Source of the DNA: Flavobacteriales bacterium
GTDB lineage: Bacteria; Bacteroidota; Bacteroidia; Flavobacteriales_D; Crocinitomicaceae
DNA length: 64,000 nucleotides
Direction of reading: 5' to 3'
Assembly: GCA_947449575.1 (NCBI GenBank)
Contig: CANFRV010000010.1
Coordinates: 1 to 64,000, forward strand
Positions 35,628 to 56,560 of this stretch are shown here, piece after piece. The translations under genes and the position numbers were made by a program. Below the pieces are notes generated by a model, which was given only the letters and a program-made list of their open reading frames with translations, was not told the origin of the DNA and did no database searches. The stretch's first letter is position 1; each line of letters begins with the position of its first letter.

Positions 35628-36470
35628 ATGTGTAAATTCATTTTATTTTCTTTACTATTTTCTCCTTTTATTATAAAAGGGCAAAATGGATTGGAAAACA
35701 TACTAGTTGAAAAGTATTATGTTTCAACAGCTGATGACACCGCATCTAATTTTTATGCGGGAAAGCTTCCTATAGGATCAACTACCTATAGAATATATGC
35801 AGATTTGCTTCCGGGATATAGGTTTCAAATGGCGTATGGAAGCCGTACCCACAAATTATTTTTTAAAACATCCACACTCTTTTTTAATAATGAAGACAAA
35901 GGAGATGTAATTCCGAATGTAATAGCAAAAAGAACTTTACATAAAAATACAGTTATGTTAGATTCTTGGCTTTCTGTCGGTTCAGCTGCTGAAGATTGTT
36001 TTGGAGTTTTAAAAAACGACGACGACTCCTTATTAACAGTTGTTCACGAAAAGTCATTTTTGCAAAATAAATCGTTTAATGGCATTCCTATCTCTTTTAA
36101 AGATGGGTTGGTAGAATCCGACAAAATTCCCCGGCCAACCTTTTTTAATATAGATTCTGCTGTCACTGTTTTTAGTAATACGAAGAAGGGAGGTTATTTT
36201 TTCACAGACAACGGCGCATGGGCATGCATGGGTCCTGGATCTGTTGGGATTGATTCTTTAACAAATAATAGAGTTTTAATTGCGCAAATTACAACTGATG
36301 GTGATTTTTCCTTTGAATTAAATATTCAAATAGGTACTCCTATAAAAGGTGAGTCCCAAAAATATGTTGCAAGAGACCCTGTTAATAATGAAATTCTTTT
36401 ACCTAGTTTAATTTTTGACAGTAGAAGTTTTAATAAAAAGAACCCTAAAAAAAGAAAATCTAAAAAATAA
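35628..36470 (+). CDS. Secreted EKYY-domain protein without T9SS tail
   Basis: A 280-residue exported protein. Signal peptide MCKFILFSLLFSPFIIKGQ. The rest is a single copy of a domain I do not recognise, shared with the genes at 36476, 40664 and 47562: LENILVEKYY, STTYRIYADLLPGY, TLFFNNEDKG, LDSWLSVGS, GVLKNDDDS, RVLIAQITTDGDFSFELNI. Unlike those, it has no C-terminal sorting domain and ends in a basic tail NPKKRKSKK, so it may stay in the periplasm. ATG 35628 is chosen over an in-frame GTG at 35616. Five bases separate it from the next gene. Confidence 0.75.
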   Translation: MCKFILFSLLFSPFIIKGQNGLENILVEKYYVSTADDTASNFYAGKLPIGSTTYRIYADLLPGYRFQMAYGSRTHKLFFKTSTLFFNNEDKGDVIPNVIAKRTLHKNTVMLDSWLSVGSAAEDCFGVLKNDDDSLLTVVHEKSFLQNKSFNGIPISFKDGLVESDKIPRPTFFNIDSAVTVFSNTKKGGYFFTDNGAWACMGPGSVGIDSLTNNRVLIAQITTDGDFSFELNIQIGTPIKGESQKYVARDPVNNEILLPSLIFDSRSFNKKNPKKRKSKK

Positions 36471-36475
36471 TAAAA

Positions 36476-37582
36476 ATGAAAAAAATTACTTTAATTGTTG
36501 GATTGTTAATTATTTGCCCGATCGCAAAATCGCAAGGACTTGAAGGGATTGTTGTAGAGAAATATTATGTTTCTGACGAATTAGATTCTGCGAATGCTGC
36601 TGATAACGGGGCTGTTTCTGAATTGCATAAAGGATCCATTACCTACAGAGTTTTTGTAGATATGGCAACGGATTATAGATTTCTTAATTTGTATGGTAAT
36701 GCCAATCATGATTTTAAAATTAATTCAAGCACTAATTTTTATAATGACCCGAACAATGGATCTATTTTTCCTCAAGGTAACAATGTCACAAATACAAGAA
36801 AAAACACAACATTAATTGATTCTTGGTTAAGCGTTGGTGGTGTAGCCAGTGGAAAGATGGGGGTTTTAAAAACAGAAGATACGGATGGATCTATCGGAAA
36901 TGCGCACAACATTTTAGCCAATAATCCTGGTGGAGATATGGGTTTACCTATTAACGGAACGGATGCGCAAGACGGATTAATGCCAGGCACACCAATATCG
37001 CCTAATAGCCTTGGTTTTACTACTGAATTAGATGTGTTCGATCAAACTCCAGGAGGTTCTTTTTTAACGAATGGTGGAGTGATAGCAGCTCTAGGAGGTG
37101 CTTCAGGAGTTACGGCGAGTAATATGATATTAATTGGACAATTTACAACGGATGGTGTATTTAGTTTTGAATTAAACATTCTATTAGGAACTCCAACCCC
37201 TGGAGGAAGTGAAAAATATGTTGCGAAAAACGCGATTGATTTGGAGACACAAGATAGTTCATTAATATATTCGTCATATATTGCTCCTCCAATAGACACG
37301 AGTGAATTAACAGAAAATTTAAAGTCGGCTTCTACGTTTTCGGTGTATCCAAATCCAACAAGTGATGAATTTACACTTTTTATATCCAACAGTGTAGGCA
37401 ATTCTTCCGATAATTATATTTTGCAGGATATTACAGGGAAGATTGTTTCTTCTTCTAAATTGGTGAAAGACGTGACTAATTTTAGTAAAACAGTTAATAT
37501 TTCTGCTTTGCCAGCAGGTATATACTTTTTAACTGTTTCATTAAATAACAACGTTTCAACAAAAAAAATTGTTAAACAATAA
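36476..37582 (+). CDS. Secreted EKYY-domain protein with T9SS type A domain
   Basis: A 368-residue protein. Signal peptide MKKITLIVGLLIICPIAKSQ. EKYY domain about residues 20-260: LEGIVVEKYYVSDELDSANA, SITYRVFVDMATDYRF, TNFYNDPNNGS, TLIDSWLSVGGVASGKMGVLK, EDTDGSIGNAH, MILIGQFTTDGVFSFELNI. C-terminal T9SS domain from FSVYPNPTSDEFTLF to STKKIVKQ. Likely a cell-surface or secreted protein. It is nearly collinear with the first 250 residues of the 1142-residue protein at 47562. Confidence 0.82.
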   Translation: MKKITLIVGLLIICPIAKSQGLEGIVVEKYYVSDELDSANAADNGAVSELHKGSITYRVFVDMATDYRFLNLYGNANHDFKINSSTNFYNDPNNGSIFPQGNNVTNTRKNTTLIDSWLSVGGVASGKMGVLKTEDTDGSIGNAHNILANNPGGDMGLPINGTDAQDGLMPGTPISPNSLGFTTELDVFDQTPGGSFLTNGGVIAALGGASGVTASNMILIGQFTTDGVFSFELNILLGTPTPGGSEKYVAKNAIDLETQDSSLIYSSYIAPPIDTSELTENLKSASTFSVYPNPTSDEFTLFISNSVGNSSDNYILQDITGKIVSSSKLVKDVTNFSKTVNISALPAGIYFLTVSLNNNVSTKKIVKQ

Positions 37583-37597
37583 TTCGTTTACTAACTA

Positions 37598-40500
37598 ATG
37601 GTTACTGTATTTAAAGCAAGTTTACTGTTTCTTCTTTTTTCTTCTTCTATTTCTTATGGTCAAGGAACTATAAAAGGGAAGGTTACAGAGGACAACGGAG
37701 AAGTAATGTTCGATGTAAAAATTTACGTTAAAGACAACAAGCAAATTACAACAAAGAGTGATTTTGATGGGAATTTTTCATTAAACATCCCTCTTTCTGG
37801 CCCTCAAAAGTTGGTGATTTTTTTTGCAGGATATGACACGCTTATAGAGACAATTGATCTGAAGAATAATGAAGTTTTGGTGAATGATTTTACCTTAGTT
37901 CAACCAAAGAAAGACTTAGGGGAAGTAGTCGTTGTTTCTAGAGCGAATAAAAAGAAAGAAAATTACGTACAAAAATTAAAAATTAACTCTGCTACTTCTA
38001 TTGATTATGTTTCTAATCAACAGATGAAAGAAATTGGCGACCCAAATGCGGTTGCTGCAATTGCTAGAGTTTCTGGGGTATCATCAAGCGGCGGATTAAT
38101 TACCGTGCGAGGAATTGGCGATAGATATGTGAAAACTACCTTAAATGGATCTAGAATTCCGACACTTGACCCTTTAACAAATAACATTAAGTTGGATATA
38201 TTCCCCGCGAGTTTAATTGATAATATCATTATTACTAAAACAGCAAGTCCTGAATTACCAGGTGATTGGGCCGGAGCCTATATTTCTATTGAAACCAGAG
38301 ATTATCCAACTAAATTGGATATAAATATTGACACACAATTTGGTTACAATGAACAAACATCTTTTAAAGATGTCATCAGTTCGCAAAGAAGTTCTACAGA
38401 TTGGTTAGGTTTTGATAACGGCTTTAGAGCGGTGTCTCTTGACAAATTAGAAAATCCAAATTTAAATCCAACACAATACCAAGAAATGTCAGCTCTTGGG
38501 TTGACAGAGTATTATAAAAATTTAGGAGTAAATGGCTGGGTAACAGGAAGTCCTGAAGGGAACGCTTATTTCAGACTAGGCTTAGTCGAATTAGGACTTC
38601 TACCTACAGCCTTAATAAATGATGATGCAGCTTATTCAAAAGCGGTTTCAGACTATAACCTTACTTACAAAGACAAGGCGTTTAATACCTTGAACCCTGA
38701 CGGAAAAGATTATAACAATGGATTATCAAATAGTTGGGGTACTGTTAAAAGAAAAGCGCCTCTTAATTTTACTCAGAGTTTTAGTATTGGGGAAGAATTA
38801 AAATTATTTGGAAGACCTTTTGGTTACGTGCTCGGGTTTCGTTATGGAACAGCTACTCGTTTTGACCCAAATGGAGTTTCCCAAAGAGTAGGTGCCGAAG
38901 AATTAAATTTCCCATTTGAGTTAAAAGAGACTACACAAATAAGTCGTGAAACAAATGGATGGAATGCATTATTGAATTTAGCCTATACAGTGACTGAAAA
39001 CACAAAACTATCTTTGTTGTACATGCCAAATTATTCAGGAACAAATGATGTTTCAAAATTCACAACTCAATTCGAAAACCAACCAGGTCAGGATTGTAGA
39101 ACTCAAAATAACATTTTTTACGAACAAAGAAAGCAGCAAATAGTGCAATTTAATGCGAATCATTTTATACCAAAACATAAAATTAAAATTGATTTAAACT
39201 CTTCCTACACACTTGGCTCTAGTATTGCTCCTGATTTTAAAATACTTCAATATAATTTCACCAATGATAATGGAGTACAAAAAAACTACATGTTTTCTCC
39301 GACAGCGGGGGATGGAATTAGAAGATATTACAGGTATTTAAATGAAAATATTTTTGATTCTAGAATTTCTGCTGAAATTCCAATCAAGAAAAAAGTAAAA
39401 TTGGTTCGTAAAGTTAAAATAGGAGGAGCATACCAAAATATAGATCGTAAACAAGATTTAAATGAATATTATTTAGATCAAGGAAATAATAGTATGGTTC
39501 CTAATTTAAATAGCGATGATATTGATGCGTATTTAGATCCGAGTAATTTTATTATGAAGGATCAAAAAATAAATTTTATCTACAATCAACGCGACTATGC
39601 GAGAAATCATACATTTGGAACAAGCTCAGTGTTATCCTGTTTTGGAATGCTTGATTATGAAATTTCTGCTCTCTTGCGACTTTCAGGTGGTGTAAGAGTG
39701 GAGCAATCAAACATTTTTACAGATGTAGTACAGTATCATAATATGGGATATGAAAGAAATGATATTAGAAGAGAAAATGTCGGAGGATTTCCCTTAGTAA
39801 ATTCCGCAAACATAAATAAAGCGAATTTTTTACCTAGTATCAATATTATTTATAAATGGAATATAATTGACTCTGCCACCACCAATGTTCGATTGAATTA
39901 TAGTCAAACACTGGCTAGACCAAGTTTACGAGAATTAAATGACGGGGCTGTTTTTGACAATGAATTTAGAACGTTGATATATGGAAATTCTGATTTAAAA
40001 ATAGTAGAAATACAAAATTATGACTTCCGATTTGAATCGTATCTAAAAAATGACGACAATATTTCTGTCAGCTTATTTTATAAAAGTTTTAAAAACCACA
40101 TAGAATTAGGTTTTGGGAATTCAGGAATCACGTGGCAAAACATGGATCAATCAACGGTAAAAGGGATAGAATTTGAGGGTAGAAAAGGGTTAGGTAAAAA
40201 TTTCGAAATACGAGCGAATGTTACGTTGGTTCAATCCATTTCTCAATCCATTCGAAAGAATATGGAAATAATCAATGGCGAAAATATATATACTACCGTA
40301 GATACGTTGTCCCGACCAATGTTTGGGCAGGCTCCCTATATTGTCAACGGGTCAATGACTTATAAAGCGAAGAAATTAGGAATACATGCTACTGTGGGAT
40401 ATAATATTCAGGGACCTCGCTTAGTAATTACAGGCGTTGTAAAAGGAAGACCGGATGTCTATGAAATGCCTAGAAACACAGTTGATCTTAAAATTAGCAA

Positions 40501-40654
40501 GAAAATAGGCAAGAAATTCTCTGCCAGCATAAGTGTTCGAGACCTATTAAATGCGCCCGTTCGACGAGCCTATAAACTCCCAACAGAATGGGTTGATTAT
40601 GATAAATTTAGATATGGTACAAATTACACAGTGGGGTTGTCCTATAATTTTTAA
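37598..40654 (+). CDS. TonB-dependent outer-membrane receptor
   Basis: A 1018-residue receptor. Signal peptide MVTVFKASLLFLLFSSSISYG. A carboxypeptidase-regulatory-like domain (22-105, GTIKGKVTEDNGEVMFDVKI) precedes the plug (about 120-230: AVAAIARVSGVSSSGGLITV, RGIGDRYVKTTLNGSRIPTL, DIFPASLIDNIIITKTASPE), then a beta-barrel that ends in a C-terminal Phe (YTVGLSYNF). Such receptors import ligands with energy from TonB-ExbBD. No SusD lipoprotein gene is beside it, so it is not a SusCD pair. It lies inside the EKYY operon with 15- and 9-base gaps, suggesting a joint role with those proteins. Confidence 0.93.
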   Translation: MVTVFKASLLFLLFSSSISYGQGTIKGKVTEDNGEVMFDVKIYVKDNKQITTKSDFDGNFSLNIPLSGPQKLVIFFAGYDTLIETIDLKNNEVLVNDFTLVQPKKDLGEVVVVSRANKKKENYVQKLKINSATSIDYVSNQQMKEIGDPNAVAAIARVSGVSSSGGLITVRGIGDRYVKTTLNGSRIPTLDPLTNNIKLDIFPASLIDNIIITKTASPELPGDWAGAYISIETRDYPTKLDINIDTQFGYNEQTSFKDVISSQRSSTDWLGFDNGFRAVSLDKLENPNLNPTQYQEMSALGLTEYYKNLGVNGWVTGSPEGNAYFRLGLVELGLLPTALINDDAAYSKAVSDYNLTYKDKAFNTLNPDGKDYNNGLSNSWGTVKRKAPLNFTQSFSIGEELKLFGRPFGYVLGFRYGTATRFDPNGVSQRVGAEELNFPFELKETTQISRETNGWNALLNLAYTVTENTKLSLLYMPNYSGTNDVSKFTTQFENQPGQDCRTQNNIFYEQRKQQIVQFNANHFIPKHKIKIDLNSSYTLGSSIAPDFKILQYNFTNDNGVQKNYMFSPTAGDGIRRYYRYLNENIFDSRISAEIPIKKKVKLVRKVKIGGAYQNIDRKQDLNEYYLDQGNNSMVPNLNSDDIDAYLDPSNFIMKDQKINFIYNQRDYARNHTFGTSSVLSCFGMLDYEISALLRLSGGVRVEQSNIFTDVVQYHNMGYERNDIRRENVGGFPLVNSANINKANFLPSINIIYKWNIIDSATTNVRLNYSQTLARPSLRELNDGAVFDNEFRTLIYGNSDLKIVEIQNYDFRFESYLKNDDNISVSLFYKSFKNHIELGFGNSGITWQNMDQSTVKGIEFEGRKGLGKNFEIRANVTLVQSISQSIRKNMEIINGENIYTTVDTLSRPMFGQAPYIVNGSMTYKAKKLGIHATVGYNIQGPRLVITGVVKGRPDVYEMPRNTVDLKISKKIGKKFSASISVRDLLNAPVRRAYKLPTEWVDYDKFRYGTNYTVGLSYNF

Positions 40655-40663
40655 ATCGTTAAG

Positions 40664-41998
40664 ATGAGATTCATACAGTTTTTAATCCTTTTTTTGTTTT
40701 TGATAATTTCTAGTGAGATGAATGCTCAAATAGAAAAAGTAATCGTTGAGAAATATTATATTTCAGATGAAATAGATGCAACAGATTTGACAGGAGGTAA
40801 AGTAGATTCAGGATCTGTTACCTATAGAATTTATGTTGATCTAAAGCCAGGAAATATTCTTAAAAAAATATATGGAGATGTGAATCATCCAGCTAAGTTT
40901 ATTAGTACAGATTATTTTTACAACCATTCTGCTGACGGGCAAAGTTTTGCGAAGGATTTTGTGAAGACAAGATATACGGAAAGTACAATTGCTTTAGATT
41001 CATGGTTAACACTTGGTCAAACTGCAAAAAAACAAGGTACAAAAACATATTTTGGAATTCTAAAAGAACAAGATACGGACGGTTCGTTTATTGGAGGAGT
41101 AAACAATGATGGCGGAAGCGCAATGATTGCTGGAGGTTTATTAACGAATGTCAATCCAGAAATGGGATCTTCTTTAACAACCAATGACGGAATGGATACG
41201 ATGAATGTAACTCCAACTTCATGGGTCAGTTTTGGTATAAAAGATGTTGTTTTTGGAAATGATAGTACGATTTTTGGTTCACTAGTTGCGAAGAAAGAAT
41301 TTATAAGTACTTCTTTTTCTCTTGAAAACTTTGGAATTTCAGGAGTAGTAGCAGATAGTAATCAAATTATTATTGCGCAATTAACGACAAAAGGAGATTT
41401 AAGTTTTGAAATAAACATGGAAGTGGAACAACTTATTGACGGAGTTCCTACCCTTGTAAAATATGTTGCCAATGATAGTATTCTTCTAAGTGGCGAAGTT
41501 TTTAGTCCTTTGCTCAAATATCCGTATACATGTGGCTGCACAAATCCTGATTATTTAGAATATAACAATGAATATGCTTGTTTAGCAGAAGGGGCATGTA
41601 TTACTCCTATCGTTTATGGCTGTACGGACACGATGGCGTGTAACTTTGACTCAACAGCCAATTTTATGATTCATAAGTTATGCTGTTACCCAGGAAATTG
41701 CAACGATAGAGACATTGCTGTGGTTTGTCCATCATTAAATGAGTCTTCTTTTACAGTAGAGATTTATCCAAATCCAGCCTATACAACGTTATTTCTAGAC
41801 GGCGTGTTAGGAGAAATGAAAGAGTTTAAATATTCAATCATTAATTCTTTTGGTATCGTCGAAATGGAAAAAAACCTGGGATACATCAATGGTATTATCT
41901 ATGAGGAGATAAATATTTCTGAGTTATCGAATGGAGTCTATGTGTTAAAAGTAATCTCTGGGAATGAATTAGCGAATAAAATGTTTATTAAAAATTAA
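40664..41998 (+). CDS. Secreted EKYY-domain protein with Cys-rich GCTD motif and T9SS domain
   Basis: A 444-residue protein. Signal peptide ends near residue 22 (SEMNAQ). EKYY domain (23-270): IEKVIVEKYYISDEIDATDL, SVTYRIYVDLKPGN, TDYFYNHSADG, LDSWLTLGQTAKKQ, GILKEQDTDGS, IIIAQLTTKGDLSFEINM. It is followed by a Cys-rich segment (about 285-350) with CGCTNPDYLEYNNEYACL and YGCTDTMACNFDSTAN, resembling the GCTDPxACNY repeats of marine Bacteroidota, then a T9SS type A domain from FTVEIYPNPAYTTLFLDG. Nine bases after the receptor gene. Confidence 0.82.
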   Translation: MRFIQFLILFLFLIISSEMNAQIEKVIVEKYYISDEIDATDLTGGKVDSGSVTYRIYVDLKPGNILKKIYGDVNHPAKFISTDYFYNHSADGQSFAKDFVKTRYTESTIALDSWLTLGQTAKKQGTKTYFGILKEQDTDGSFIGGVNNDGGSAMIAGGLLTNVNPEMGSSLTTNDGMDTMNVTPTSWVSFGIKDVVFGNDSTIFGSLVAKKEFISTSFSLENFGISGVVADSNQIIIAQLTTKGDLSFEINMEVEQLIDGVPTLVKYVANDSILLSGEVFSPLLKYPYTCGCTNPDYLEYNNEYACLAEGACITPIVYGCTDTMACNFDSTANFMIHKLCCYPGNCNDRDIAVVCPSLNESSFTVEIYPNPAYTTLFLDGVLGEMKEFKYSIINSFGIVEMEKNLGYINGIIYEEINISELSNGVYVLKVISGNELANKMFIKN

Positions 41999-42048
41999 TC
42001 ATTCTTAGAAAGATCTAGAAAAGAATTCTTTGCATAAAAAAAGTAAAA

Positions 42049-42762
42049 ATGAAAATAAATCTGAAATACGTATGGATCTTTTTTTTACTCATTACTGTTT
42101 TTTCCTGTAAAAAACACAAGGAGGAAAAGAAAGAGTTGGAGACGAGTACAGTGTCAGACATTGAAGGCAACGTCTATAAAACAGTGAAAATAGGCGACCA
42201 ATGGTGGATGGCAGAAAATTTACGTGTAAAAAAATACAATGACGGAAGCTCAATAATGGAGGTTGTTGAATTAGACAATGATTCTGTTTGGGCAAAGCAA
42301 ACAGAAGGGGCTTTTTATTACAACGACATCAGCTTGTGTTTTTTATACAATGGTTTTGCGGTAAAAGATGTCCGTAAAGTGGCACCTGCGGGATGGCATA
42401 TTCCGACAGATGAAGAGTGGAAAACACTCGAAAAAACAATGGGAATGAATGCTGAAGAAGCAAACAACACAGCCTGGAGGGGTGCAAATATCGGCGATAA
42501 AATGGCAATAAAATCATCTATTGGCTGGCCTTCTACTTCTATTTTATTTGGCACGAACGAGTTTGGTTTTACTGCAGTGCCGGGAGGAAATAGAGGGTAT
42601 GATGGGTATAAAAACAAGCAAGCATCGATGGCATTTTGGTGGTCTTCGACAGCGATTGACAATGAACTCTGGTACCGTTATTTGGATTATCAAAAAACAG
42701 AGGTTTTTAGACAGCACATCGATAAAAATTATGGTTTTAATATTCGATGTGTAAAAGATTAA
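42049..42762 (+). CDS. FISUMP-domain lipoprotein
   Basis: A 237-residue lipoprotein. The signal peptide ends in the lipobox ITVFSC with Cys at 20. The mature part is a Fibrobacter succinogenes major paralogous (FISUMP) domain: DIEGNVYKTVKIGDQWWMAENLR, APAGWHIPTDEEWKTLEK, FTAVPGGNRGYDG, FWWSSTAID and NYGFNIRCVKD. FISUMP domains resemble C-type-lectin-like or sulfatase-modifying-type folds; function unclear. It is probably on the outer membrane, in the EKYY operon (50-base gap before, 14 after). Confidence 0.9.
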   Translation: MKINLKYVWIFFLLITVFSCKKHKEEKKELETSTVSDIEGNVYKTVKIGDQWWMAENLRVKKYNDGSSIMEVVELDNDSVWAKQTEGAFYYNDISLCFLYNGFAVKDVRKVAPAGWHIPTDEEWKTLEKTMGMNAEEANNTAWRGANIGDKMAIKSSIGWPSTSILFGTNEFGFTAVPGGNRGYDGYKNKQASMAFWWSSTAIDNELWYRYLDYQKTEVFRQHIDKNYGFNIRCVKD

Positions 42763-42776
42763 ATTACTATACAATC

Positions 42777-43463
42777 ATGAAGAATTTCTTTTATTTTTTT
42801 TTATTATACCTACTTTTTGTTTTACTATTACTGGTACTTCCTTTTAGGGTGTTTTCTCAAACGGCCGATTCATCACAAGTTCGAAAGATGGATATTGGCT
42901 TTAATTATTCAGCGGATTATAGTTATAGAAACTTAACCGCTGCAGAATCCAATAGAAGTATTGTTGAAATGTATGATTCAATTGAACACGGTAGGTATGG
43001 GTCTACTTTCGGATTAAATGGAATATATTCGTTTTCGGATAAAATTTCTCTTTCATTGGGTGTATTATTCTCTGACAAGGGAGAAAAAACGAAAGTTTCA
43101 TTAGTTGATAAAAATCTAAGTTATTTAAATCACTATTATTATTTAGACATTCCATTAAAAGTAAATTATTTTGTATTTAAAAAACAAATTTATTTCACAG
43201 GAGGTATTTCAAGCAACTTATTTTTAAAATCTACGATACGTGATGTAGATCAGAATAAAACAGTAAATACTAATTTGAATAGTAATAAAATCAACATGTC
43301 TTATTTAGGAGGATTCGGAATTAATCAGCAATTGTCAGATTCATGGTATTTTAAGTCGGAGGTTTTATACAGACATTCGATAAATCCAATGATGAAAGCG
43401 CCAATTAATCGCTATTTATATTCAGTGGGTTTCAGTGCAGGATTCTTTTACCAAATTAAATAA
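42777..43463 (+). CDS. Outer-membrane beta-barrel protein (PorT-like)
   Basis: A 228-residue protein with a signal peptide (NFFYFFLLYLLFVLLLLVLP ... FS) and alternating polar/hydrophobic strands: MDIGFNYSADYSYRNL, YGSTFGLNGIYSFSDKISLS, YYYLDIPLKVNYFVFKKQIY, SFSAGFFYQIK at the end. This fits the OMP_b-brl_2 small-barrel group. No specific function is assigned. The chosen ATG (42777) is followed by a good signal sequence; a longer frame begins at 42747 inside the lipoprotein gene. Confidence 0.78.
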   Translation: MKNFFYFFLLYLLFVLLLLVLPFRVFSQTADSSQVRKMDIGFNYSADYSYRNLTAAESNRSIVEMYDSIEHGRYGSTFGLNGIYSFSDKISLSLGVLFSDKGEKTKVSLVDKNLSYLNHYYYLDIPLKVNYFVFKKQIYFTGGISSNLFLKSTIRDVDQNKTVNTNLNSNKINMSYLGGFGINQQLSDSWYFKSEVLYRHSINPMMKAPINRYLYSVGFSAGFFYQIK

Positions 43464-43476
43464 GTAAGAATTCTAC

Positions 43477-47395: not shown

Positions 47396-47411
47396 TATTT
47401 AGTATTCCAAT

Positions 47412-47523
47412 TTTTCTAGACGATTTGTTAACTCAAATTGATTAAATAACGAGTGTAGGGCTTCACGAATAAGCTGCACTTATTAAATAATGTTCATCAA
47501 CGATTATCCAATCGTCTAGAAAA
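47412..47523 (+). promoter_or_regulatory. Long-spaced inverted repeat with competing hairpin in the leader of the 1142-residue gene
   Basis: Bases 47412-47424 (TTTCTAGACGATT region) and 47510-47522 form a 13-bp perfect inverted repeat, 84 bases apart. The 3' arm's AATCGT can instead pair with ACGATT at 47500-47505 (loop ATCC). The two structures exclude each other. It lies between the beta-helix gene and the ATG at 47562. Confidence 0.4.
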
Positions 47524-47561
47524 GTATTGTCTATTATATAAATAAATTAATAAAATAGAAA

Positions 47562-50500
47562 ATGAAAAAAAATTCAAAAAAACTATTGTTAAGCTTGGGA
47601 CTTGCCTTGATTGGTAATTTAGCTCAAGCGCAAGGATTAGAAGGGATAGTAGTTGAAAAATTCTATCAAGCAAATGCTGCCGATGCTTCTAATGCTTCAA
47701 GTAATGGAGCTAGTCCATTATTAAACTCAGGTGCTGTTACATATAGAGTGTATGTAAACATGGCGAGTGGATATAAATTTTCAAATATTTATGGAAATGC
47801 TGCTCACGCATTACAGGTATCTACAACAACCAATTTTTACAATGATCCAAGTTCAGGATCAACAACTAATCCTTCTTCAATAAGCACAACGAATGTTAGA
47901 AAAAACACCGCTTTAATCGACTCATGGTTTACAACAGGAGGAGTTGCTACAGGGAAACTGGGAGTTTTGAAATCAGAAGATACAGATGGATCTCCAGGAA
48001 ATGCGCAAGGGGTTTTGCAAAACAATCCTGGAGGCGCATATGGTTTGCCAATTAACATTGGAACTACTACAAGTCTTTCTGCTGCAGATGGTATGATCTC
48101 AGGAACGGTTGTTACTCCTAACGTATTAGGTACACTTGACCTTAGTGCTTTAGATGCTTCGACAGGAAATAATTTTATCTCTAACTCTTGTTCGATTGCA
48201 GCATTAGGTGGAGTTGTAGGACCTACAGCTTCAAACATGGTTTTGATCGGTCAGTTCACTACAGACGGTGCTTTTAGTTACCATTTAAACGTGCAAGTTA
48301 TTAATATTGCTACTGGAGTAGCAGAAAATTATGTTTCAAGTGCTCCAACAGGTTCTGAATTAACGAACGCAACATTAAATTTAGTTCCAAATATTCCTCC
48401 ATCAGTGAGTATCACATCTCCAGCGAACGCGGCTAGTATTATTACTGGTACTGCTGTGACAATTACAGCTACCTCTGCAGATACAGATGGTACAGTTTCT
48501 GGTGTTCAATTTTTTGTAGATGGTGTTTCTATTGGAACTGATGCGTCAAGTCCATATTCTATGCCCTACACAGCTACAACAGGGACACATTCTTTAACAG
48601 CTAAATCGACTGATAACTCAGGTGATATTACAACTTCAAGTGCTATCTCGATAACAGTTGCTCCTAATCAAGCGCCATCTGTTTCATTGACAGCTGCTAC
48701 GACAGCAATCGTTGGTGATATCGTAGCATTATCTGCTACATCAACAGATGTTGATGGTACAGTTGCTCAAGTTGAATTTTTTGTTGACAATGTTTCTATA
48801 GGTGCTGATTTAACATCTGCTTACGGTGCAAACTGGACTTCAATAGTAGGAACACATTTGCTTAAAGCAGTTTCTACTGACAATTTAGGTTTAACTGCAA
48901 CTTCAAATGTTGTTAGTATATTAGTTGTGGCAAACACGCCTCCAACGGCTTCACTTACTTCTCCAGTATCTAGTGCTGCGTATGTGGCTCCACAAGTGGT
49001 TACTATAGCAGGAACAGCGACAGATTCTGACGGAACAATCACTCTAGTTGAATTCTTAGTAAATGGTGCTGTTGTTGGTACGGATGTTTCTTCACCATAT
49101 TCTTATGCATGGACAAGTACGTATGGAGTAAAAAATTTCGCACTTAGATCTACAGATAATAAAGGTGCGGTAACGACATCTTCTGTACTTACTTTGACAA
49201 TTGCAGATCCGAATGCTTTACCATATGAAGTAGGAACGGTTATTCAAACATGTAACCCTACTACTTTCTGTATTCCTTTAGCTGCTGCGGTTACTGCTCC
49301 AGTTGACAACGTAAAAGGTTACGATCTAGTTTTAAATTATGATAAAACAAAAGTTACACCAACAGGTAACATCACTATTTTTGACAATTTAATTAGTTCT
49401 ACTCTTGTTGAAACAGCAAACAGTATTGATTTAGCTGCGGGAACAATGAACATTTCTGTTTATTTTAAAGGTTCTGCTCCGATCAACTCTGAATTTAATG
49501 GTGTAGGAAATATCATTTGTGTTGAATTCTCTAAAACAATTAACTTTTTACCAGCAGATACAGCGATTATTAGTGTACCATTTTTACAAGAAAGTTATAT
49601 CACTGGTGTAACTTCTAAATCAGTATCTTCAGGGAAAGCGATAACACACAAAGATCAAAACTATCCTGGAACGTTAAAATTCTGGTTAGATAACTCTCCA
49701 ATTCAATACAATTCAGCGTTACCAAATGCTCATTTGAACACAACTGTTCAAGGGGCAGATTTAGCTACTTCTGTATTAAATCCTAATAACGTAAAAGTTT
49801 CTCCAAATATGACAGGTAACTTTACGTATGACTTGTTAAATGGTTTAGCTCTTAGCATTGCAAGAGATGTTGATAATGCTGTTGCGGTTCAATTACTTGT
49901 TAATGGTGCTGATGCTGCTTTAGGAAAAACGCTTTTAATCAATGGTGCATTTACTCCATCTATCTACCAAGTTTTAGCATTAGATGTTAACCTTGATGGT
50001 GTTGTTAGTGCGGGTGATATCTCTCAAATTAAACAAAGAGCAACAAATAACATTCATGAATACCAACAAGCTTGGAATTATTCTGCTACGGGTGTTTCGA
50101 ATGGTCAATTATCTAAAGACTGGGTATTTGTTGATTCATTGAGAATTCAAAATAATGCTGCTTACCATATTTCAGCAACTTTTCCTTCAAATGACGGTGT
50201 AGGTTTCTCTAAAGCAAAAGTTCCAGTGACTCCTTTCGTTTTGCCAACAACTGTTCTTGATTATTTCAACTGTCCAGTTATTACAGCAGAGACTTTTAGA
50301 GGAATCATGTTAGGTGATGTGGATGGTAACTATGCTGCATATGTTGCTGATGGAATCTTAAAAAGCCCTATATCTAATAAAGTGATTTTTGATATCTCTC
50401 AAGCGGTAGTGAATGGAAATACAGTGGATGTTCCAGTTTCTATTATTTCTGACGAACCAGTTAATGCGCTTGATTTTGCTTTCCAATTCAATGAAGATAA

Positions 50501-50990
50501 ATTATCTTTCAATACGGTAGAAAGTAAATCATCTGATATCGATGGAATGAGTCATTATGATAGTAATGATAAAACGTTAAGATATACTGCTGATAACTTG
50601 AATAATTTTGACTTAAACAAGGAAGTGGTTACGATTCGTTTTAACGTAGTTGATGGTAAAATTTCTGAAGAAGATATCAAATCTACTTTAGGGTTATTAA
50701 ACGGTAAAAAAGCAAATGTTGAATTTAGAAATAGTTCTATAAGCACTTCTTCTAATGTAAGCACTTCAGTTTATCCAAATCCAACGACAGGAATTTTAAA
50801 CGTTGTTGTTTCTGAAAACTCAATGGTTCAATTGTTTGATATGTCTGGTAAACAAGTTTTAGTACAAACGAATGTTACAGCAAATGAAAAACAAGAAATC
50901 AATATTGATGGTTTATCAGGAGGTGTTTACATGTTGAAAATTTCAAATGAAAACTTTAATTCTATTGAACGAGTTGTGTTAAATAAGTGA
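47562..50990 (+). CDS. Large secreted EKYY protein with Ig-like, cohesin-like and EF-hand modules and T9SS domain
   Basis: An 1142-residue surface protein. Signal peptide ends at about 24 (NLAQAQ). EKYY domain 25-270 (LEGIVVEKFY, VTYRVYVNMASGYKF, LIDSWFTTGG, MVLIGQFTTDGAF). Three Ig-like units start near 278, 369 and 459 (SADTDGTVSGVQFFVDGVSI). A cohesin-like domain is at about 553-690 (CIPLAAAV, GYDLVLNYDKTKV). An EF-hand DVNLDGVVSAGD is near 807 and LGDVDGNYAAYVADG near 916. A second cohesin-like domain (939-1055) reads FDISQAVVNGNTVDVPV, ALDFAFQFNEDKLSF. T9SS type A domain starts near 1067 (SVYPNPTTG). Domain names are inferred from motifs. Confidence 0.78.
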   Translation: MKKNSKKLLLSLGLALIGNLAQAQGLEGIVVEKFYQANAADASNASSNGASPLLNSGAVTYRVYVNMASGYKFSNIYGNAAHALQVSTTTNFYNDPSSGSTTNPSSISTTNVRKNTALIDSWFTTGGVATGKLGVLKSEDTDGSPGNAQGVLQNNPGGAYGLPINIGTTTSLSAADGMISGTVVTPNVLGTLDLSALDASTGNNFISNSCSIAALGGVVGPTASNMVLIGQFTTDGAFSYHLNVQVINIATGVAENYVSSAPTGSELTNATLNLVPNIPPSVSITSPANAASIITGTAVTITATSADTDGTVSGVQFFVDGVSIGTDASSPYSMPYTATTGTHSLTAKSTDNSGDITTSSAISITVAPNQAPSVSLTAATTAIVGDIVALSATSTDVDGTVAQVEFFVDNVSIGADLTSAYGANWTSIVGTHLLKAVSTDNLGLTATSNVVSILVVANTPPTASLTSPVSSAAYVAPQVVTIAGTATDSDGTITLVEFLVNGAVVGTDVSSPYSYAWTSTYGVKNFALRSTDNKGAVTTSSVLTLTIADPNALPYEVGTVIQTCNPTTFCIPLAAAVTAPVDNVKGYDLVLNYDKTKVTPTGNITIFDNLISSTLVETANSIDLAAGTMNISVYFKGSAPINSEFNGVGNIICVEFSKTINFLPADTAIISVPFLQESYITGVTSKSVSSGKAITHKDQNYPGTLKFWLDNSPIQYNSALPNAHLNTTVQGADLATSVLNPNNVKVSPNMTGNFTYDLLNGLALSIARDVDNAVAVQLLVNGADAALGKTLLINGAFTPSIYQVLALDVNLDGVVSAGDISQIKQRATNNIHEYQQAWNYSATGVSNGQLSKDWVFVDSLRIQNNAAYHISATFPSNDGVGFSKAKVPVTPFVLPTTVLDYFNCPVITAETFRGIMLGDVDGNYAAYVADGILKSPISNKVIFDISQAVVNGNTVDVPVSIISDEPVNALDFAFQFNEDKLSFNTVESKSSDIDGMSHYDSNDKTLRYTADNLNNFDLNKEVVTIRFNVVDGKISEEDIKSTLGLLNGKKANVEFRNSSISTSSNVSTSVYPNPTTGILNVVVSENSMVQLFDMSGKQVLVQTNVTANEKQEINIDGLSGGVYMLKISNENFNSIERVVLNK

Positions 50991-51015
50991 TTTTTCGCAA
51001 TTAATTTAAACAAAG

Positions 51016-51045
51016 AAAAGCCGTAATCGAAAGATTACGGCTTTT
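51016..51045 (+). terminator. Rho-independent terminator after the 1142-residue gene
   Basis: A 13-bp stem AAAAGCCGTAATC/GATTACGGCTTTT with a GAAA tetraloop, followed by a T-run, 26 bases beyond the stop. Confidence 0.93.
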
Positions 51046-51079
51046 TGATATTCAAAAGCTAAACTTAATACGATTCAAA

Positions 51080-52336
51080 ATGAAACTATTTACTCTTTTT
51101 ATTGGTTTATTTTTTCTAAACAATCTTTTTGCCAACACCAGCGTATCCGCTAAAATGCCCATGCCACCAGTAGGGAATGATACCATGATTTTTGATTTAA
51201 AAAACGCGACGGTTTCAACTGTAGCGGGAGTAAATTATTTCGATTTACCCATGTCTATTATTACGACTACTTCACACAGTTCATTTGATTTTTGGTTTAA
51301 ATTTAATGAAGCAAAGCTTACCTTTCTTTCAGCTAGCACGACGATTCCTTCGTTGGATCAATTAACATATTTCAGCACTTCTGATCATTTTCTAAGAAAT
51401 ACTACTTCTGGTCCTTCAACGGCTTATGTTGTTCCTGCAAATGTTACTTTGGTCACGGTGCGGTTTCAATTAGCGACCTATTGCACGGATGTTGACACGT
51501 CAGATTTTAATTCAATCACATCCTTGTTAGATGGAATAATTTGTAACAGTAAATTTACCTCAACTCCGCCAAAATCTGCAATTACTGTTAGTAGTAGTGT
51601 AGCCTGCAAAAATTCAACGATCAATTTTAGTTATCCAAATTCAATCCTTGGTAGAGCAATTTCTTCGTGGTCTTGGAATTTTGGTGACGGTTCTTCTGGC
51701 AGTGCGCTGCAAAACCCAAATCATACGTACACTTCTTTTGGTAATTTTACGGCTCAATTAACGGTTACTACAACAGATGGATGCACCTATTCATTAACAA
51801 AACCGATGACCATTTTAGAGTCTCCGTCGGTGACTTTTTCATATGCGTACAATGCAAGTTTAGCAACAACTGATTTCACCAATACGTCAACGATATCTTC
51901 AGGAACAATCGTTTCATATAGCTGGAATTTTGGTGATGGTGGATCGAGCATATTGCAGAACCCAAGCCACCATTTTGTTGTCAATGGAACATATATAGTA
52001 ACATTAACAGCAACCTCTAGTAATGGATGCGTCACCACGTATTCTTCTTCAATTGTATCGAATAATAGTTCTCAAGGCTTAAATAATGTGAAAGGTGAAG
52101 ATAATTTAATTAGTATTTATCCAAACCCGGCATCCAACTTTCTTTTTGTCACGGTAAATAAAAATGCAACAATAGAATTATTTGACACAAAAATGAACAC
52201 GGTGTATAGCAGTGAACTTCTACACGAAAAGAAAGAGTTTCAAATTGATGTGGAATCTTTAGCAGATGGAATTTATTTCCTACGAGCAATAAGTGACCAA
52301 GGTATTCACACTCATAAAATTATTATTAAAAAATAA
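51080..52336 (+). CDS. Secreted cohesin-like/PKD protein with T9SS type A domain
   Basis: A 418-residue protein. Signal peptide MKLFTLFIGLFFLNNLFA. A cohesin-like domain (about 34-165) starts TMIFDLKNATVSTVAGVNYF, with SSFDFWFKFNEAKLTF and VTLVTVRFQL. Two PKD domains follow (180-255 and 256-335, ISSWSWNFGDGSS and YSWNFGDGGSS), then T9SS type A from ISIYPNPASNFLFVTV. Its first domain is closely similar to that of the 1003-residue neighbour and more distantly to the 1142-residue protein. Confidence 0.8.
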   Translation: MKLFTLFIGLFFLNNLFANTSVSAKMPMPPVGNDTMIFDLKNATVSTVAGVNYFDLPMSIITTTSHSSFDFWFKFNEAKLTFLSASTTIPSLDQLTYFSTSDHFLRNTTSGPSTAYVVPANVTLVTVRFQLATYCTDVDTSDFNSITSLLDGIICNSKFTSTPPKSAITVSSSVACKNSTINFSYPNSILGRAISSWSWNFGDGSSGSALQNPNHTYTSFGNFTAQLTVTTTDGCTYSLTKPMTILESPSVTFSYAYNASLATTDFTNTSTISSGTIVSYSWNFGDGGSSILQNPSHHFVVNGTYIVTLTATSSNGCVTTYSSSIVSNNSSQGLNNVKGEDNLISIYPNPASNFLFVTVNKNATIELFDTKMNTVYSSELLHEKKEFQIDVESLADGIYFLRAISDQGIHTHKIIIKK

Positions 52337-52480
52337 GACTTAAGTTGTTATTTCTAATGTAAAAAGTATGTTACTATAAAATAAACTGTTGGTTAACAAG
52401 ATGTTCTTATTGGGCATAAAAAGGTGTATTTATTAAAGAAATCATAACATTGAATTTAATATTCCTTTTGATACTAACCC

Positions 52481-52488
52481 TAACTTTG
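52481..52488 (+). promoter_or_regulatory. -7 promoter box TAACTTTG of the PKD/SprF pair
   Basis: Exact TAnnTTTG match 55 bases before the first likely ATG (52543). The -33 element is not clear. Confidence 0.45.
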
Positions 52489-52542
52489 TAAATTGTAAAA
52501 CAGCATTTTAAGAGGGTATTTAATGTTTTTAAGTAAGTGAAA

Positions 52543-55500
52543 ATGAAAGTAGTAATTTATTTATTTGTGTTTCTTGGAAGTTTTAATTTATTAGCAAATG
52601 AATCTTTCAATGGGAGATCAAAAAAGCTTCCAATACCTCTGCCTCCAGCAGTAAATGACACCATGTTTTTCGATTTAAATAATTCGGTTTTTACCTCTTC
52701 ATCAGGGTTCTACTATTTAGACATCCCAATGTATATCAAAGCGGCGATTAACCCAAGTTCGTTCGATTTTTGGTTCAAATTTAACGAATCAAAGATGACC
52801 TACAATTCCACAATTTCTTTGATTTCACCACTCGACACGTACAGTTATTTTAATACAGATGATCATTTTTTAAGAAATACTACTTCTGGACCCTCTATAT
52901 CTTATCAAGTGCCAAATAATACAACGTTGTTAATTGTGCGTTTTTTATTAGCAGATGCTTGTACAGCAGTCGACACTTCTGATTTTAATCAAATAACAAC
53001 CTTATTAGATGGTTTGGAGTGTAAGCACAAAATATTATTTTCTTCTACTAGTGCAGTAGGAACAACAACTTCTCCTACTACTTATTGTACTAATTCAGGA
53101 GTAGATTTAAGTTTTCCAGCATCCATTTATGGTAAAACCATCACTTCTTGGAATTGGGATTTTGCGAATGGGACTGTTGCCAACATTCAAAATCCTACAG
53201 CTGTTTTTACCGACCCACAAACATATCCGGTGTCCATTAATGTGGCAACAATTGGAGGGTGTAATTATTCATTTATTCAAAACATAACCGTTTTTAATAG
53301 ACCCTTCGCTAATTTTTCTTACACAATTGGTTTGTCTGCGGATTCGGTATTTTTCACGAATAATATTCCCATCGGTTCATTGGACACCTTAACGTGGAAT
53401 TGGAGTTTCGGAGATGCTGGTGTAAGTACTGTCGAAAACCCTTCTCATCATTATGTTTCCGGGGGTTACTATTCTGCTTCGCTTACTTCAACAACAAATC
53501 ATGGTTGCTCAGACACTTTTATAGAGTCAATATATATTGATAAACCAACAGCATCTTTCTCTTCAACGGGGACATGCGCAGGATCCGTAATTTCATTTCT
53601 TGATAATTCTGTGTATTCAACCGGAACGATAACAGCTTGGCATTGGGATTTTGGAGATGGCACAACAAGTACAGTTCAAAATCCTTCCCATATTTATTCT
53701 TTTTCCGGAAGTTATACGGTGAATTTAATCGTCACAAGTTCTTCAGGTTCTTTTGCTAATATCTCAAACTTACTAGTAATCGCTAGTAAACCATTAGTTC
53801 AGTTTTTGGGAGACGCGCTAACTGGTTGTTCACCTCATTTAGTTAATTTTAGTAATTTATCGGTTGCTCCAGCTGGGTCAGCGTACTTATGGAACTTTGG
53901 AGATAATTTAACTTCCACCTCGCAAACTCCTTCACATACCTACCTAGAAGGAGGTGTTTTTCCTGTTAAACTTGTGGTAACATCTTTGAATGGTTGCAGC
54001 GATTCCTTAATTAAACCAGGGTATATAAATGTAATAAAGGCGGCAACGGCTAATTTTTCGTCAACAGATGGATGTGCCAATTCGCTAATTAATTTTATCG
54101 ATAATTCTACTATCACAACAGGAAGTATTATTTCTTGGAATTGGACTTTTGGAGATGGCGGAATTAGCTCTTCTCAAAATCCGACGCATATTTATTCTAC
54201 TCCAGGGAGTTATTTGGTTACTTTAATTGTGACCAATAATTTAGGTTGTGCAGGAACTTTATCAAAGACCACGATTATAAATGAAATTCCTTCCGTTCAA
54301 TTTACAACACCTAATCTTTCAGGTTGTGCACCTCTTTCTGCCAATTTTCAAAATTTATCTACGACCGTTGTTGGCGCTTCTTATCTTTGGAATTTTGGTG
54401 ATGGCTTCACAGCAATTACCCAAAATCCAACACACGTTTATTTGAATGATGGCGTTTTTGATGTGTCGTTATTAGTTACTGCGCCAGGTGGATGTAAAGA
54501 TTCAATGAGTATGAGTGCTTATATTAATGTATTAAATGGTGTACAAGCAGATTTTTCAGATACGAATCGATGTGTAAATTCTGCGACTAATTTTAGTGAT
54601 CTTTCAACGATTTCTGATGGAACTGTTTCTGCATGGTCATGGGATTTTGGAAATGGAAGTTCTAGCACTAGTCAAAATCCAACTTTTGTGTATGTTACTC
54701 CTGGAACGTATGTTGTAAGTTTAAACGTTTTAACAAGTCTTGGATGTAGTAATACAATTGTAAAAGATGTAACCATTGATGCTACACCGGTGGTAAATTT
54801 TACGGTCAATGATTCATTAGGATGCGGATCTTTACTTGCTTTATTTACGGATCTTTCTTCTACTCCAATCAATTCAACCTATGCTTGGAGTTTTGGTGAT
54901 ACCGACATTTCTTCAGAAAAAAATCCGTCGCATACTTTTTCTACAAACGGTTCATACACGATCAAAGAGGTAGTTACTTCTCCTGAAGGATGTATGGATT
55001 CGATCAGTAAAATAAATTATATTTCAATGCAAACAGCTCCTTCTGCTAGTTTTATTGCTTCAAAAGATTTCGCTCTCATTCCAAGTGCAATAATTGATTT
55101 TACGAGTGAATCTTCTGATTATTCAAGCTTGAATTGGGATTTTGGGGATTCGTATTATTCTAATTTACAGAGCCCTTCTCATACTTTTATTAATACTGGT
55201 CAGTATAACATATGCTTAACGGCGTATAGTTCATTTGGTTGCGCAGACACCTCTTGTATGGAAGTACAGATATCTGCATCCAATAAAATAGCAGTTCCTT
55301 CCGCATTTTCGCCCAATGGTGACGGGAACAATGATGTATTTTTAATTGAGGGAGGACCCTTTTTAGAGATTGAAATTAAAATTATGAATGAATGGGGAAA
55401 TCAAATTTTTGTGAGTTCTTCACAAAATGAAGGATGGAATGGAAAATATAATAACGTGTTGCAGCCCAATGGTGCGTATGAATATATAATTTCTGGAAAA

Positions 55501-55554
55501 ACCTTGGACAGTCAAACCATTAGTAAATACGGAATAGTTAATCTTACTCGATAA
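52543..55554 (+). CDS. Large secreted PKD-repeat protein with T9SS type B (CHU_C) domain
   Basis: A 1003-residue protein. Signal peptide about 1-19 (VVIYLFVFLGSFNLLA). A cohesin-like domain (30-165) matches that of the 418-residue neighbour (TMFFDLNNSVFTSSSGFYYL, SSFDFWFKFNESKMTYN). Then about nine PKD repeats (190-910), each with a W(D/S/N)FGD motif, for example HWDFGDGTTSTVQNPSHIY. The C-terminal domain AVPSAFSPNGDGNNDVFLIE to KYGIVNLTR is a T9SS type B (CHU_C, gliding-motility) sorting domain. A GTG at 52537 is an alternative start. The PorP/SprF gene follows with one base between. Confidence 0.92.
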   Translation: MKVVIYLFVFLGSFNLLANESFNGRSKKLPIPLPPAVNDTMFFDLNNSVFTSSSGFYYLDIPMYIKAAINPSSFDFWFKFNESKMTYNSTISLISPLDTYSYFNTDDHFLRNTTSGPSISYQVPNNTTLLIVRFLLADACTAVDTSDFNQITTLLDGLECKHKILFSSTSAVGTTTSPTTYCTNSGVDLSFPASIYGKTITSWNWDFANGTVANIQNPTAVFTDPQTYPVSINVATIGGCNYSFIQNITVFNRPFANFSYTIGLSADSVFFTNNIPIGSLDTLTWNWSFGDAGVSTVENPSHHYVSGGYYSASLTSTTNHGCSDTFIESIYIDKPTASFSSTGTCAGSVISFLDNSVYSTGTITAWHWDFGDGTTSTVQNPSHIYSFSGSYTVNLIVTSSSGSFANISNLLVIASKPLVQFLGDALTGCSPHLVNFSNLSVAPAGSAYLWNFGDNLTSTSQTPSHTYLEGGVFPVKLVVTSLNGCSDSLIKPGYINVIKAATANFSSTDGCANSLINFIDNSTITTGSIISWNWTFGDGGISSSQNPTHIYSTPGSYLVTLIVTNNLGCAGTLSKTTIINEIPSVQFTTPNLSGCAPLSANFQNLSTTVVGASYLWNFGDGFTAITQNPTHVYLNDGVFDVSLLVTAPGGCKDSMSMSAYINVLNGVQADFSDTNRCVNSATNFSDLSTISDGTVSAWSWDFGNGSSSTSQNPTFVYVTPGTYVVSLNVLTSLGCSNTIVKDVTIDATPVVNFTVNDSLGCGSLLALFTDLSSTPINSTYAWSFGDTDISSEKNPSHTFSTNGSYTIKEVVTSPEGCMDSISKINYISMQTAPSASFIASKDFALIPSAIIDFTSESSDYSSLNWDFGDSYYSNLQSPSHTFINTGQYNICLTAYSSFGCADTSCMEVQISASNKIAVPSAFSPNGDGNNDVFLIEGGPFLEIEIKIMNEWGNQIFVSSSQNEGWNGKYNNVLQPNGAYEYIISGKTLDSQTISKYGIVNLTR

Positions 55555-55555
55555 A

Positions 55556-56560
55556 ATGCGATCAATGAATATTTTTTATTTTTTAACAGTCGTGCAATTC
55601 TGCTTAATGCAAGCAACCTTTGCGCAAGATTTTCATTTAGCTCAATATGAATCAAATCCATTAAATTTAAATCCGGCATTAAATGGTGAACGACTTTCAG
55701 AAAATAAAGGGATTCATTACAATTTCAATTATCGGGATCAAATAGCAAATTATTCGGATGCACCAGGTTCATTTAAAAGTTTTGCCGCGGGTATAGATAT
55801 TCCTATTAATTCTAAATTTTCGATAGGCCAATATTATGGAAATAATAAAAGTGTTGACGGTGTTTTTAATTCAAATAACTTTATGTTTTCAACAGCATAT
55901 AGAATTAATCATTCTGATGCAAGAGATGGGGAAAATTTATCTGTTGGAGTACAATTGGGTGTTTTAAACACAGCTTTTAATCCGCAAAATTTTACCTATG
56001 GATCACAATATTCAGCAAGTGCTGCTGATGGTTTTGACAGGAACATATCTAGCGGTGAAAATTTGACGGTTTTAAGTGTGTATAAGTTTAATGTCAATTT
56101 AGGGGTATACTATAGAAAAAAACTTTTAAACGATAAGTTAACTGTTTATGGTGGTGCATCCGTTTACAATATTTCAAACCCCTCGAAAGAAATAAATGGC
56201 GTTCAGTTGCCAATCGCATTAAAATACAATGTAAATATTGGTGCGATTTATAAGGTAGATGAAAAATTAACAGTAAAACCTCAGATTTTAATTATGGCCC
56301 AAAACAAGGCAAATGAATTAAACGCTGGGTTATTGTTGTATTATAAGTTGACGAATGATTATGAAACCATTTTTGGTTTGGGCGTTAGAAATAAAAATGC
56401 AATTATTTTTAATTTTGGGCTACGCGTAAAAGAAAACACGTTTAGAGCTAGTTACTGTGCTGTTAACAGTTATTTGTATGAATATAAAAATAAGGGATTA
56501 GAATTTTCTGTTACGCACACAGCAAAGAAAAAGATTAAAAAAGCAGTAAATGATATGTAA
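55556..56560 (+). CDS. PorP/SprF-family outer-membrane protein
   Basis: A 334-residue protein with signal peptide (MNIFYFLTVVQFCLMQATFAQ) and FHLAQYESNPLNLNPALNGE, then beta-strand-rich sequence to the end, typical of PorP/SprF. These proteins attach to the cell surface or secrete T9SS type B proteins encoded next door (known for SprB/SprF). One base after the 1003-residue protein's stop, so the two form an operon. Confidence 0.92.
   Translation: MRSMNIFYFLTVVQFCLMQATFAQDFHLAQYESNPLNLNPALNGERLSENKGIHYNFNYRDQIANYSDAPGSFKSFAAGIDIPINSKFSIGQYYGNNKSVDGVFNSNNFMFSTAYRINHSDARDGENLSVGVQLGVLNTAFNPQNFTYGSQYSASAADGFDRNISSGENLTVLSVYKFNVNLGVYYRKKLLNDKLTVYGGASVYNISNPSKEINGVQLPIALKYNVNIGAIYKVDEKLTVKPQILIMAQNKANELNAGLLLYYKLTNDYETIFGLGVRNKNAIIFNFGLRVKENTFRASYCAVNSYLYEYKNKGLEFSVTHTAKKKIKKAVNDM

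Follow-up and report, generated by a model that had tools for sequence, protein, structure and literature searches.

A conserved EKYY-domain gene block around a TonB-dependent receptor in Flavobacteriales and its putative role in phosphorus capture

Gene set and domain composition

The window analysed here, a 64,000-nucleotide stretch of the genome of a Flavobacteriales bacterium of the Crocinitomicaceae (GenBank assembly GCA_947449575.1, contig CANFRV010000010.1, positions 1 to 64,000 of the forward strand), contains a block of genes in which four proteins with a common N-terminal domain, here called EKYY, are grouped with a TonB-dependent receptor (TBDT). Twelve genes on the same (+) strand, all of them open frames, occupy positions 35616-56560 of the window, and the gaps between them, from 35616 on, are 5, 15, 9, 50, -16 (an overlap) and 13 bases, followed by 292, 166, 89, 200 and 1 bases. 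EKYY1 (35616..36470; GTG start, with an ATG at 35628) is a protein of 284 amino acids with a signal peptide, the EKYY domain, a Lys-rich tail and no signal for the type IX secretion system (T9SS), and is followed by EKYY2 (36476..37582; 368 amino acids), in which the EKYY domain is joined to a type A T9SS C-terminal domain. The TBDT (37598..40654) is composed of a CarboxypepD_reg domain, a plug and a TIGR01782-like barrel, and EKYY3 (40664..41998; 444 amino acids) carries a Cys-rich stretch and a T9SS tail behind its EKYY domain. A putative ElpS/FII-like beta-helix protein (DOC45; 45656..47395), its predicted fold based on its repeats and on the published fold of FII, ends in a 30-residue EF-hand loop module (47303..47392) recognised by pattern and profile comparison. 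EKYY4 (47562..50990; 1142 amino acids) is a putative scaffold with the EKYY domain, three Big_7 domains, a predicted cohesin, a dockerin-like stretch, a second beta-sandwich and a T9SS tail.

Between EKYY3 and the beta-helix gene lie a FISUMP lipoprotein (42049..42762; Pfam and NCBIfam matches, lipobox read by eye), a small outer-membrane beta-barrel (42747..43463; OMP_b-brl match) and a TMTC-like GT-C membrane protein with TPRs (43477..45363). The block is followed by a PKD protein with a T9SS tail (51080..52336; N-terminus cohesin-like by eye), a nine-PKD protein with a CHU_C (type B) T9SS signal (52537..55554) and a PorP/SprF outer-membrane protein (55556..56560), the last two assigned by Pfam and NCBIfam. 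The TBDT, FISUMP, small barrel, T9SS tail, PKD and PorP/SprF assignments of the original prediction, made from the letters of the window, were borne out by Pfam and NCBIfam, and so was CHU_C. Its TMTC-like label fits the PMT_2 and TPR matches of that protein, whereas the TMTC model itself stayed below its own cut-off (E 0.03). What it had called a dockerin-like EF-hand protein is the beta-helix protein, for which no Pfam or NCBIfam match was found at E<=0.1; one EF loop is present at the extreme end, but there are no tandem loops. For the beta-helix and FISUMP proteins no relative was found among solved structures, and Rfam gave no match in the window to a riboswitch or other RNA that could name the ligand.

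The EKYY domain and the conservation of the block

The shared domain that had been reported as unrecognised in the four genes aligns over the N-terminal ~265 residues of EKYY1, EKYY2, EKYY3 and EKYY4, a region of the window proteins that neither Pfam nor NCBIfam covers with a model. The two of six possible pairs that were compared gave 30% identity (EKYY1 and EKYY3; E 5e-28) and 53% identity (EKYY2 and EKYY4; E 7e-85). Among 70 diverse EKYY domains no consistent Pfam match was found (four families with one or two members each, best E 0.009). The modelling proposed along with the original prediction gave a confident beta-sandwich with a long insertion (predicted local distance difference test (pLDDT) score 92.7, predicted template modelling score 0.89) and no close solved relative: neither a sequence relative at E<=1 nor a Foldseek match at E<=0.001 was found among solved structures. 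EKYY as a cohesin was considered and rejected, the highest VIA Z of 5.8 being to adhesins (cohesins up to 5.0), a level that the tool classes as common arrangement.

A whole-genome search with the EKYY profile (E<=0.001) found four copies, all of them inside the window. The domain was present in 18 of 59 nearby genomes (the genome of the window, 9 of 11 other congeners, 4 of 24 genomes of the family and 4 of 23 of the order) and, in a wider draw, in 33 of 296 genomes of the class (E<=1e-25), mostly as several copies on a single contig; eight candidates were scored per genome in this draw, so that the copy numbers are lower bounds. In two genomes (G043 and G053) at least 20 weak EKYY-like matches each (down to E 1e-11) were spread genome-wide in large proteins, and in that lineage the EKYY domain is apparently part of a larger family that extends beyond the block. 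Cys-rich repeats of the type GCTDxxACNYDxxA were seen in EKYY3 (40664-41998) and in large EKYY proteins of two other loci (L043, L044).

For the comparison of gene order, the best 80 of 180 relatives from one receptor-based scan (profile of 11 block receptors) were used as loci, which were annotated by script and then counted. Nearly all of the records (79/80) are titled as metagenome-assembled genomes (MAGs), and about seven are from genomes also in the 59-genome set. The closest receptor record is a MAG (L053) with 95% receptor identity. Many of the lake MAGs that carry the block bear Chryseobacterium gleum or Chitinophaga pinensis titles, alongside Flavobacteriales and Crocinitomicaceae records, and these titles appear to be mislabelled.

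An EKYY gene lies directly upstream of the TBDT in all 72 loci with room, and two EKYY genes do so in 56 of 65. Directly downstream of the TBDT an EKYY gene (EKYY3) follows in 69/70 loci (the exception, L109, has 417 bases left), and a FISUMP gene comes after EKYY3 in 63/64 (exception L086). The beta-helix gene lies within 9 kb of the TBDT in 42/44 loci, a giant gene intervening in the other two (L105, L126), and is immediately followed by an EKYY gene in 40/40. Median intergenic gaps are 20, 5 and 4 bases, while the flanks vary, the 56 upstream neighbours falling into 31 groups. The block is thus one conserved unit in differing genomic settings, and the proposal that relatives would keep the gene order held. 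The small barrel was recognised between the TBDT and the beta-helix gene in 21 of 48 loci; the TMTC-like gene, which the original prediction had counted within the set, occurred in two of these 48, as well as in L040, and is a guest rather than a regular member. Glycosylation of the structure is for this reason placed outside the conserved function. A relative of the PKD protein encoded at 51080 is present in 13 loci, and a PorP/SprF gene follows a PKD/CHU_C gene in four (L037, L041, L047, L049).

In a tree of 82 EKYY domains built by a quick method from 20 of the 80 loci and the window, the EKYY3 genes form one clade (support 100), whereas genes from the other three positions intermingle (4, 7 and 8 changes). 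This bears on an alternative in which the EKYY proteins are prey or decoys, that is, surface antigens varying under phage or predator pressure with the TBDT as a mere conserved neighbour. The several paralogs, the patchy distribution across the class and the loss in two of the 11 other congeners would suit such antigens, but a single EKYY3 clade kept at a fixed position across loci, and a gene order too regular for an antigen cassette, make this explanation highly improbable.

Relatives of the receptor and beta-helix pair

In the genome of the window the second-best match to the block receptors had an E-value of 1e-59 and the third one of 6e-13, and the beta-helix protein had one other relative (37% identity). 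These two paralogs, TBDT and beta-helix protein, are adjacent on contig 7 (locus L146, 70797-78468), and after them, in the same orientation, come a response regulator and a histidine kinase. The protein types were confirmed by Pfam; in NCBIfam the regulator matched PhoB best and the kinase PnpS, with PhoR second, each match staying below its equivalog cut-off; L146 is likely the phoBR-type operon of this genome. A second copy of the PhoB-type regulator (C30) had no TBDT nearby in the stretch read.

The beta-helix family was found in 64 of 80 genomes of the class. Across 20 contexts outside the block (of 87 places listed) the TBDT adjoins the beta-helix gene in 14 and is separated from it by one open frame in 1 more; in 6 the pair has a PhoB-type regulator at its side. 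A Sphingomonas plasmid encodes a relative of the window beta-helix protein (36.8% identity over 46%, E 6e-25), followed by a TBDT and then by type II secretion system (T2SS) genes, and on two Bacteroidota plasmids a beta-helix relative adjoins a TBDT. Upstream of the block, a PhoB-type gene is the commonest neighbour group (10 of the 56), and two loci, L056 and L092, have the regulator, the TBDT/beta-helix pair and the EKYY block lined up next to one another. In L108, L115 and L128 the regulators upstream of the block are cut to ~100 residues and keep, of a PhoB-type protein, no more than the half that binds DNA. A tree of 59 receptors has a branch (support 61) that separates the 34 block receptors from 21 of the 22 pair receptors; this tree, also made by a quick method, has among its rows 29 of the 80 loci, four rows from G-numbered genomes and the window, and its three outgroup receptors, all of them fragments, sit on very long branches.

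Comparable pairs have been described in two bacteria. The phoBR operon of F. johnsoniae (Fjoh_0543-0546) encodes PhoR, PhoB, a TBDT and the lipoprotein FII with a pectin-lyase fold signature, the TBDT and FII being strongly induced on phosphate depletion; the FI cluster, PUSIII, holds a TBDT, FI and T9SS-domain proteins, and FI to FIII share 31-36% identity with a low-phosphate Caulobacter lipoprotein (PMC8115612). The operon resembles the block in that a TBDT adjoins a secreted beta-helix-type protein, and L146 in that PhoB/PhoR-like genes stand alongside, and PUSIII shares with the block the presence of T9SS-domain proteins. The F. johnsoniae loci, compared here by description, differ from it in that FI and FII are lipoproteins and that no EKYY, cohesin or FISUMP is mentioned in the available part of that account (PMC8115612). 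In Caulobacter crescentus the elpS gene (cc0170) is adjoined by the TBDT gene cc0171 and T2SS genes, so that a beta-helix-family protein and a TBDT occur together as in the block, in the layout found for the Sphingomonas plasmid relative; judging from the available part of the source, this system differs from the block in its export route, in its single lipoprotein and in having no EKYY or cohesin parts (PMC2996285). The TBDT and beta-helix gene of the block are parted by EKYY3, FISUMP and others, yet lie within the 9 kb given above, and their own paralogs in L146 are adjacent.

On the grounds of these family matches and gene layouts, the TBDT/beta-helix core of the block is a putative relative of the PhoB/PhoR-linked low-phosphate TBDT/ElpS-FII pair. 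Because of this kinship, nutrient acquisition is a better reading of the block than assembly for its own sake. The nutrient itself could be another one: a locus of the same architecture might take up a polysaccharide, a siderophore or a peptide, with the TBDT/beta-helix pair recruited and EKYY binding a non-phosphorus polymer. TBDT imports are diverse, the only sequence relatives of the window TBDT among solved structures are SusC/RagA-type N-terminal stretches, NCBIfam places it best in the broad TIGR01782 subfamily, and FII is said to resemble polygalacturonase (PMC8115612). Kinship and neighbourhood, on the other hand, favour the PhoBR-linked pairs, and neither a SusD family nor a carbohydrate-enzyme family was matched among the 12 window proteins scanned (Pfam, E<=0.1); we regard another ligand as possible but doubtful.

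Export signals, cohesin fold and proposed function

Por_Secre_tail was found in EKYY2, EKYY3, EKYY4 and the product of the 51080 gene, and CHU_C in that of the 52537 gene. Counted by a local profile on complete genes, T9SS-type tails occur in 2/57 EKYY1, 56/57 EKYY2, 55/64 EKYY3 and 36/37 EKYY4 proteins. EKYY1 and the block beta-helix protein are without a C-terminal T9SS sorting domain (Pfam, NCBIfam and local profile); EKYY1 orthologs stop just past the domain, often with a Lys-rich tail, and the beta-helix protein ends in a single EF-hand loop in 45/45 complete copies (44 by pattern, L096 by eye). The loop has the form C-P-T-D-[IL]-N-x-D-G-x-T, a second Cys closing nearly all of them, and its module has only one strong copy in the genome of the window (E 3e-15; next 0.10). 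The beta-helix paralogs that are paired with a TBDT next to the block (L055, L056, L058, L092; 4/4) and the paralog in the genome of the window have instead a T9SS tail and no EF loop. The window beta-helix protein has a signal peptide without a lipobox (by eye) and is therefore not filed as an ElpS lipoprotein; with one calcium-binding loop it falls short of the two tandem loops that define a dockerin.

The best-supported cohesin of the region lies inside EKYY4, with a weak Dockerin_1 match beside it. The model of the C-terminal half of EKYY4 has a pLDDT of 80.3, with >90 across most of its first 160 residues, and its residues 10-152 (49221..49649) match the Acetivibrio ScaB cohesin 5nrk_A with a VIA Z of 16.2 and a root-mean-square deviation of 2.4 over 134 residues. 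Other cohesins make up most of the VIA list, and Foldseek matched the model to the same chain (E 9.7e-8, TMt 0.77). Pfam Cohesin (PF00963) was found in 3 of 26 EKYY4 orthologs (best 1.8e-8), the window protein giving no match at E<=0.01, and Dockerin_1 in 23 of 26 at E<=0.01, the window stretch (49899..50039; E 9.4e-4) staying below the cut-off. According to the predicted structure EKYY4 holds a type I cohesin fold. Multi-protein surface assembly can fairly be inferred from the sequences because the block is conserved, the domain lies outside the Pfam and NCBIfam families and most members have T9SS signals, and the presence of a real cohesin fold in EKYY4 strengthens it.

A purely structural role for such an assembly, a filament, layer or matrix for adhesion or protection with the TBDT as assembly platform or sensor, would accord with the large T9SS-exported Ig/PKD proteins, the cohesin fold, the PorP/SprF with the CHU_C protein at the end and the weak likeness of EKYY to adhesins and cohesins. 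That likeness reaches, however, only the common-arrangement level mentioned above, and the fixed centre of the block is a TBDT and a beta-helix protein related to a nutrient pair, which makes this alternative rather improbable. The earlier proposal of one exported multi-protein surface structure is consequently retained as regards the conserved unit, the T9SS signals and the cohesin fold, but with nutrient acquisition preferred over assembly for its own sake as its purpose.

We consider that the block has about an even chance of being an elaborated low-phosphate locus of the TBDT/ElpS type whose parts assemble on the surface. Under phosphate shortage, a PhoB/PhoR-like system would cause the TBDT and the surface protein set to be made. 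EKYY2, EKYY3 and EKYY4, which carry the signals, would leave the cell through the T9SS, and EKYY4, with its EKYY domain, Ig repeats, predicted type I cohesin fold and dockerin-like repeats, may serve as the surface scaffold. EKYY1, without a T9SS signal, would be a periplasmic partner. The ElpS/FII-like beta-helix protein, to judge from its relatives, may bind or help process a phosphorus-containing ligand and, having no T9SS signal of its own, might be anchored to a partner through its EF-hand end, for which the EKYY4 cohesin is a candidate; the TBDT would then import the captured or released product. Phosphate regulation, the phosphorus ligand and cohesin docking are thus the inferred elements of this proposal, whereas the conserved unit, the new domain, the export signals, the cohesin fold of the model and the kinship with the PhoBR-linked pair come directly from the sequence and structure comparisons.

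Several observations weigh against it. No regulator adjoins the block in the window itself, and PhoU, looked for as a mark of a classic Pho regulon, was not found in the genome of the window, while 13 of 14 control genomes have one. Among the 10 PhoB-type neighbours, L099 is the query itself, L108, L115 and L128 consist of DNA-binding pieces of 97-107 residues, identity is just 32-40% for L102 and L116, and L096 lies 1.6 kb off; several of the loci concerned are closely related, and the regulator stood beside the pair in just 6 of the 20 outside contexts. The putative kinship with ElpS and FII is drawn from gene layout and family matches, and the beta-helix protein has no lipobox, unlike ElpS and FII. 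The branch that unites the block receptors has a support of only 61, and the EF module amounts to half a dockerin, its cohesin partner being a candidate.

A bolder version of the low-phosphate proposal, which we consider unlikely, is a cellulosome-like phosphatase complex in Bacteroidota, in which T9SS-anchored EKYY4 cohesin scaffolds would hold EF-hand-ended clients beside the TBDT, and capture, cleavage and import of organic phosphorus would take place together at a single site. The clients would be the beta-helix protein and a giant protein of 2194 residues encoded in a congener between the barrel and beta-helix genes (L034:5765-12349); this secreted protein has a calcineurin-like phosphoesterase domain (Pfam, E 2.5e-9) and two tandem EF repeats at its end and fits, by its domain content, the role of a docked phosphatase. 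Giant genes with the same kind of end, tandem EF loops, and no Pfam phosphoesterase match occur cut by contig ends in two further congeners, L047 and L049, with a piece also in L050. A phosphoesterase giant in three congeners was dropped as a candidate, Pfam backing one of the four giants scanned (L034) and the giant of L126 being of another make. If such a complex exists, the EF-hand end would let proteins without a T9SS signal stay on, or reach, the surface by way of a signal-bearing partner.

Among known assemblies, the cellulosomes of Clostridia and Ruminococcus resemble EKYY4 in their type I cohesin fold and dockerin-like repeats but differ in their Gram-positive anchoring, as opposed to a T9SS tail, and the candidate ligand of the block has one EF loop. 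SusCD loci likewise combine a TBDT, a surface lipoprotein and surface binding proteins in one unit; SusD, by contrast, is absent from the matches of the window proteins, and a FISUMP lipoprotein stands in its place. In the titles and abstract openings searched, no published account of the block or of a T9SS-anchored cohesin system was found. Known, then, is a function that the low-phosphate TBDT/ElpS-FII loci suggest by analogy; new relative to the literature found are the EKYY family, the fixed order EKYY-TBDT-EKYY-FISUMP and the predicted cohesin scaffold within it.

Organic phosphorus ranks among the key limiting nutrients of fresh water. If the low-phosphate proposal is true, a sizeable minority of Bacteroidota would possess an undescribed multi-protein system for its capture, built with a domain family that neither Pfam nor NCBIfam contains and a cohesin module serving beyond cellulose breakdown. 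Three subjects so far kept apart, namely low-phosphate TonB receptors, the ElpS/FII proteins and T9SS surface proteins, would then join in one testable machine.

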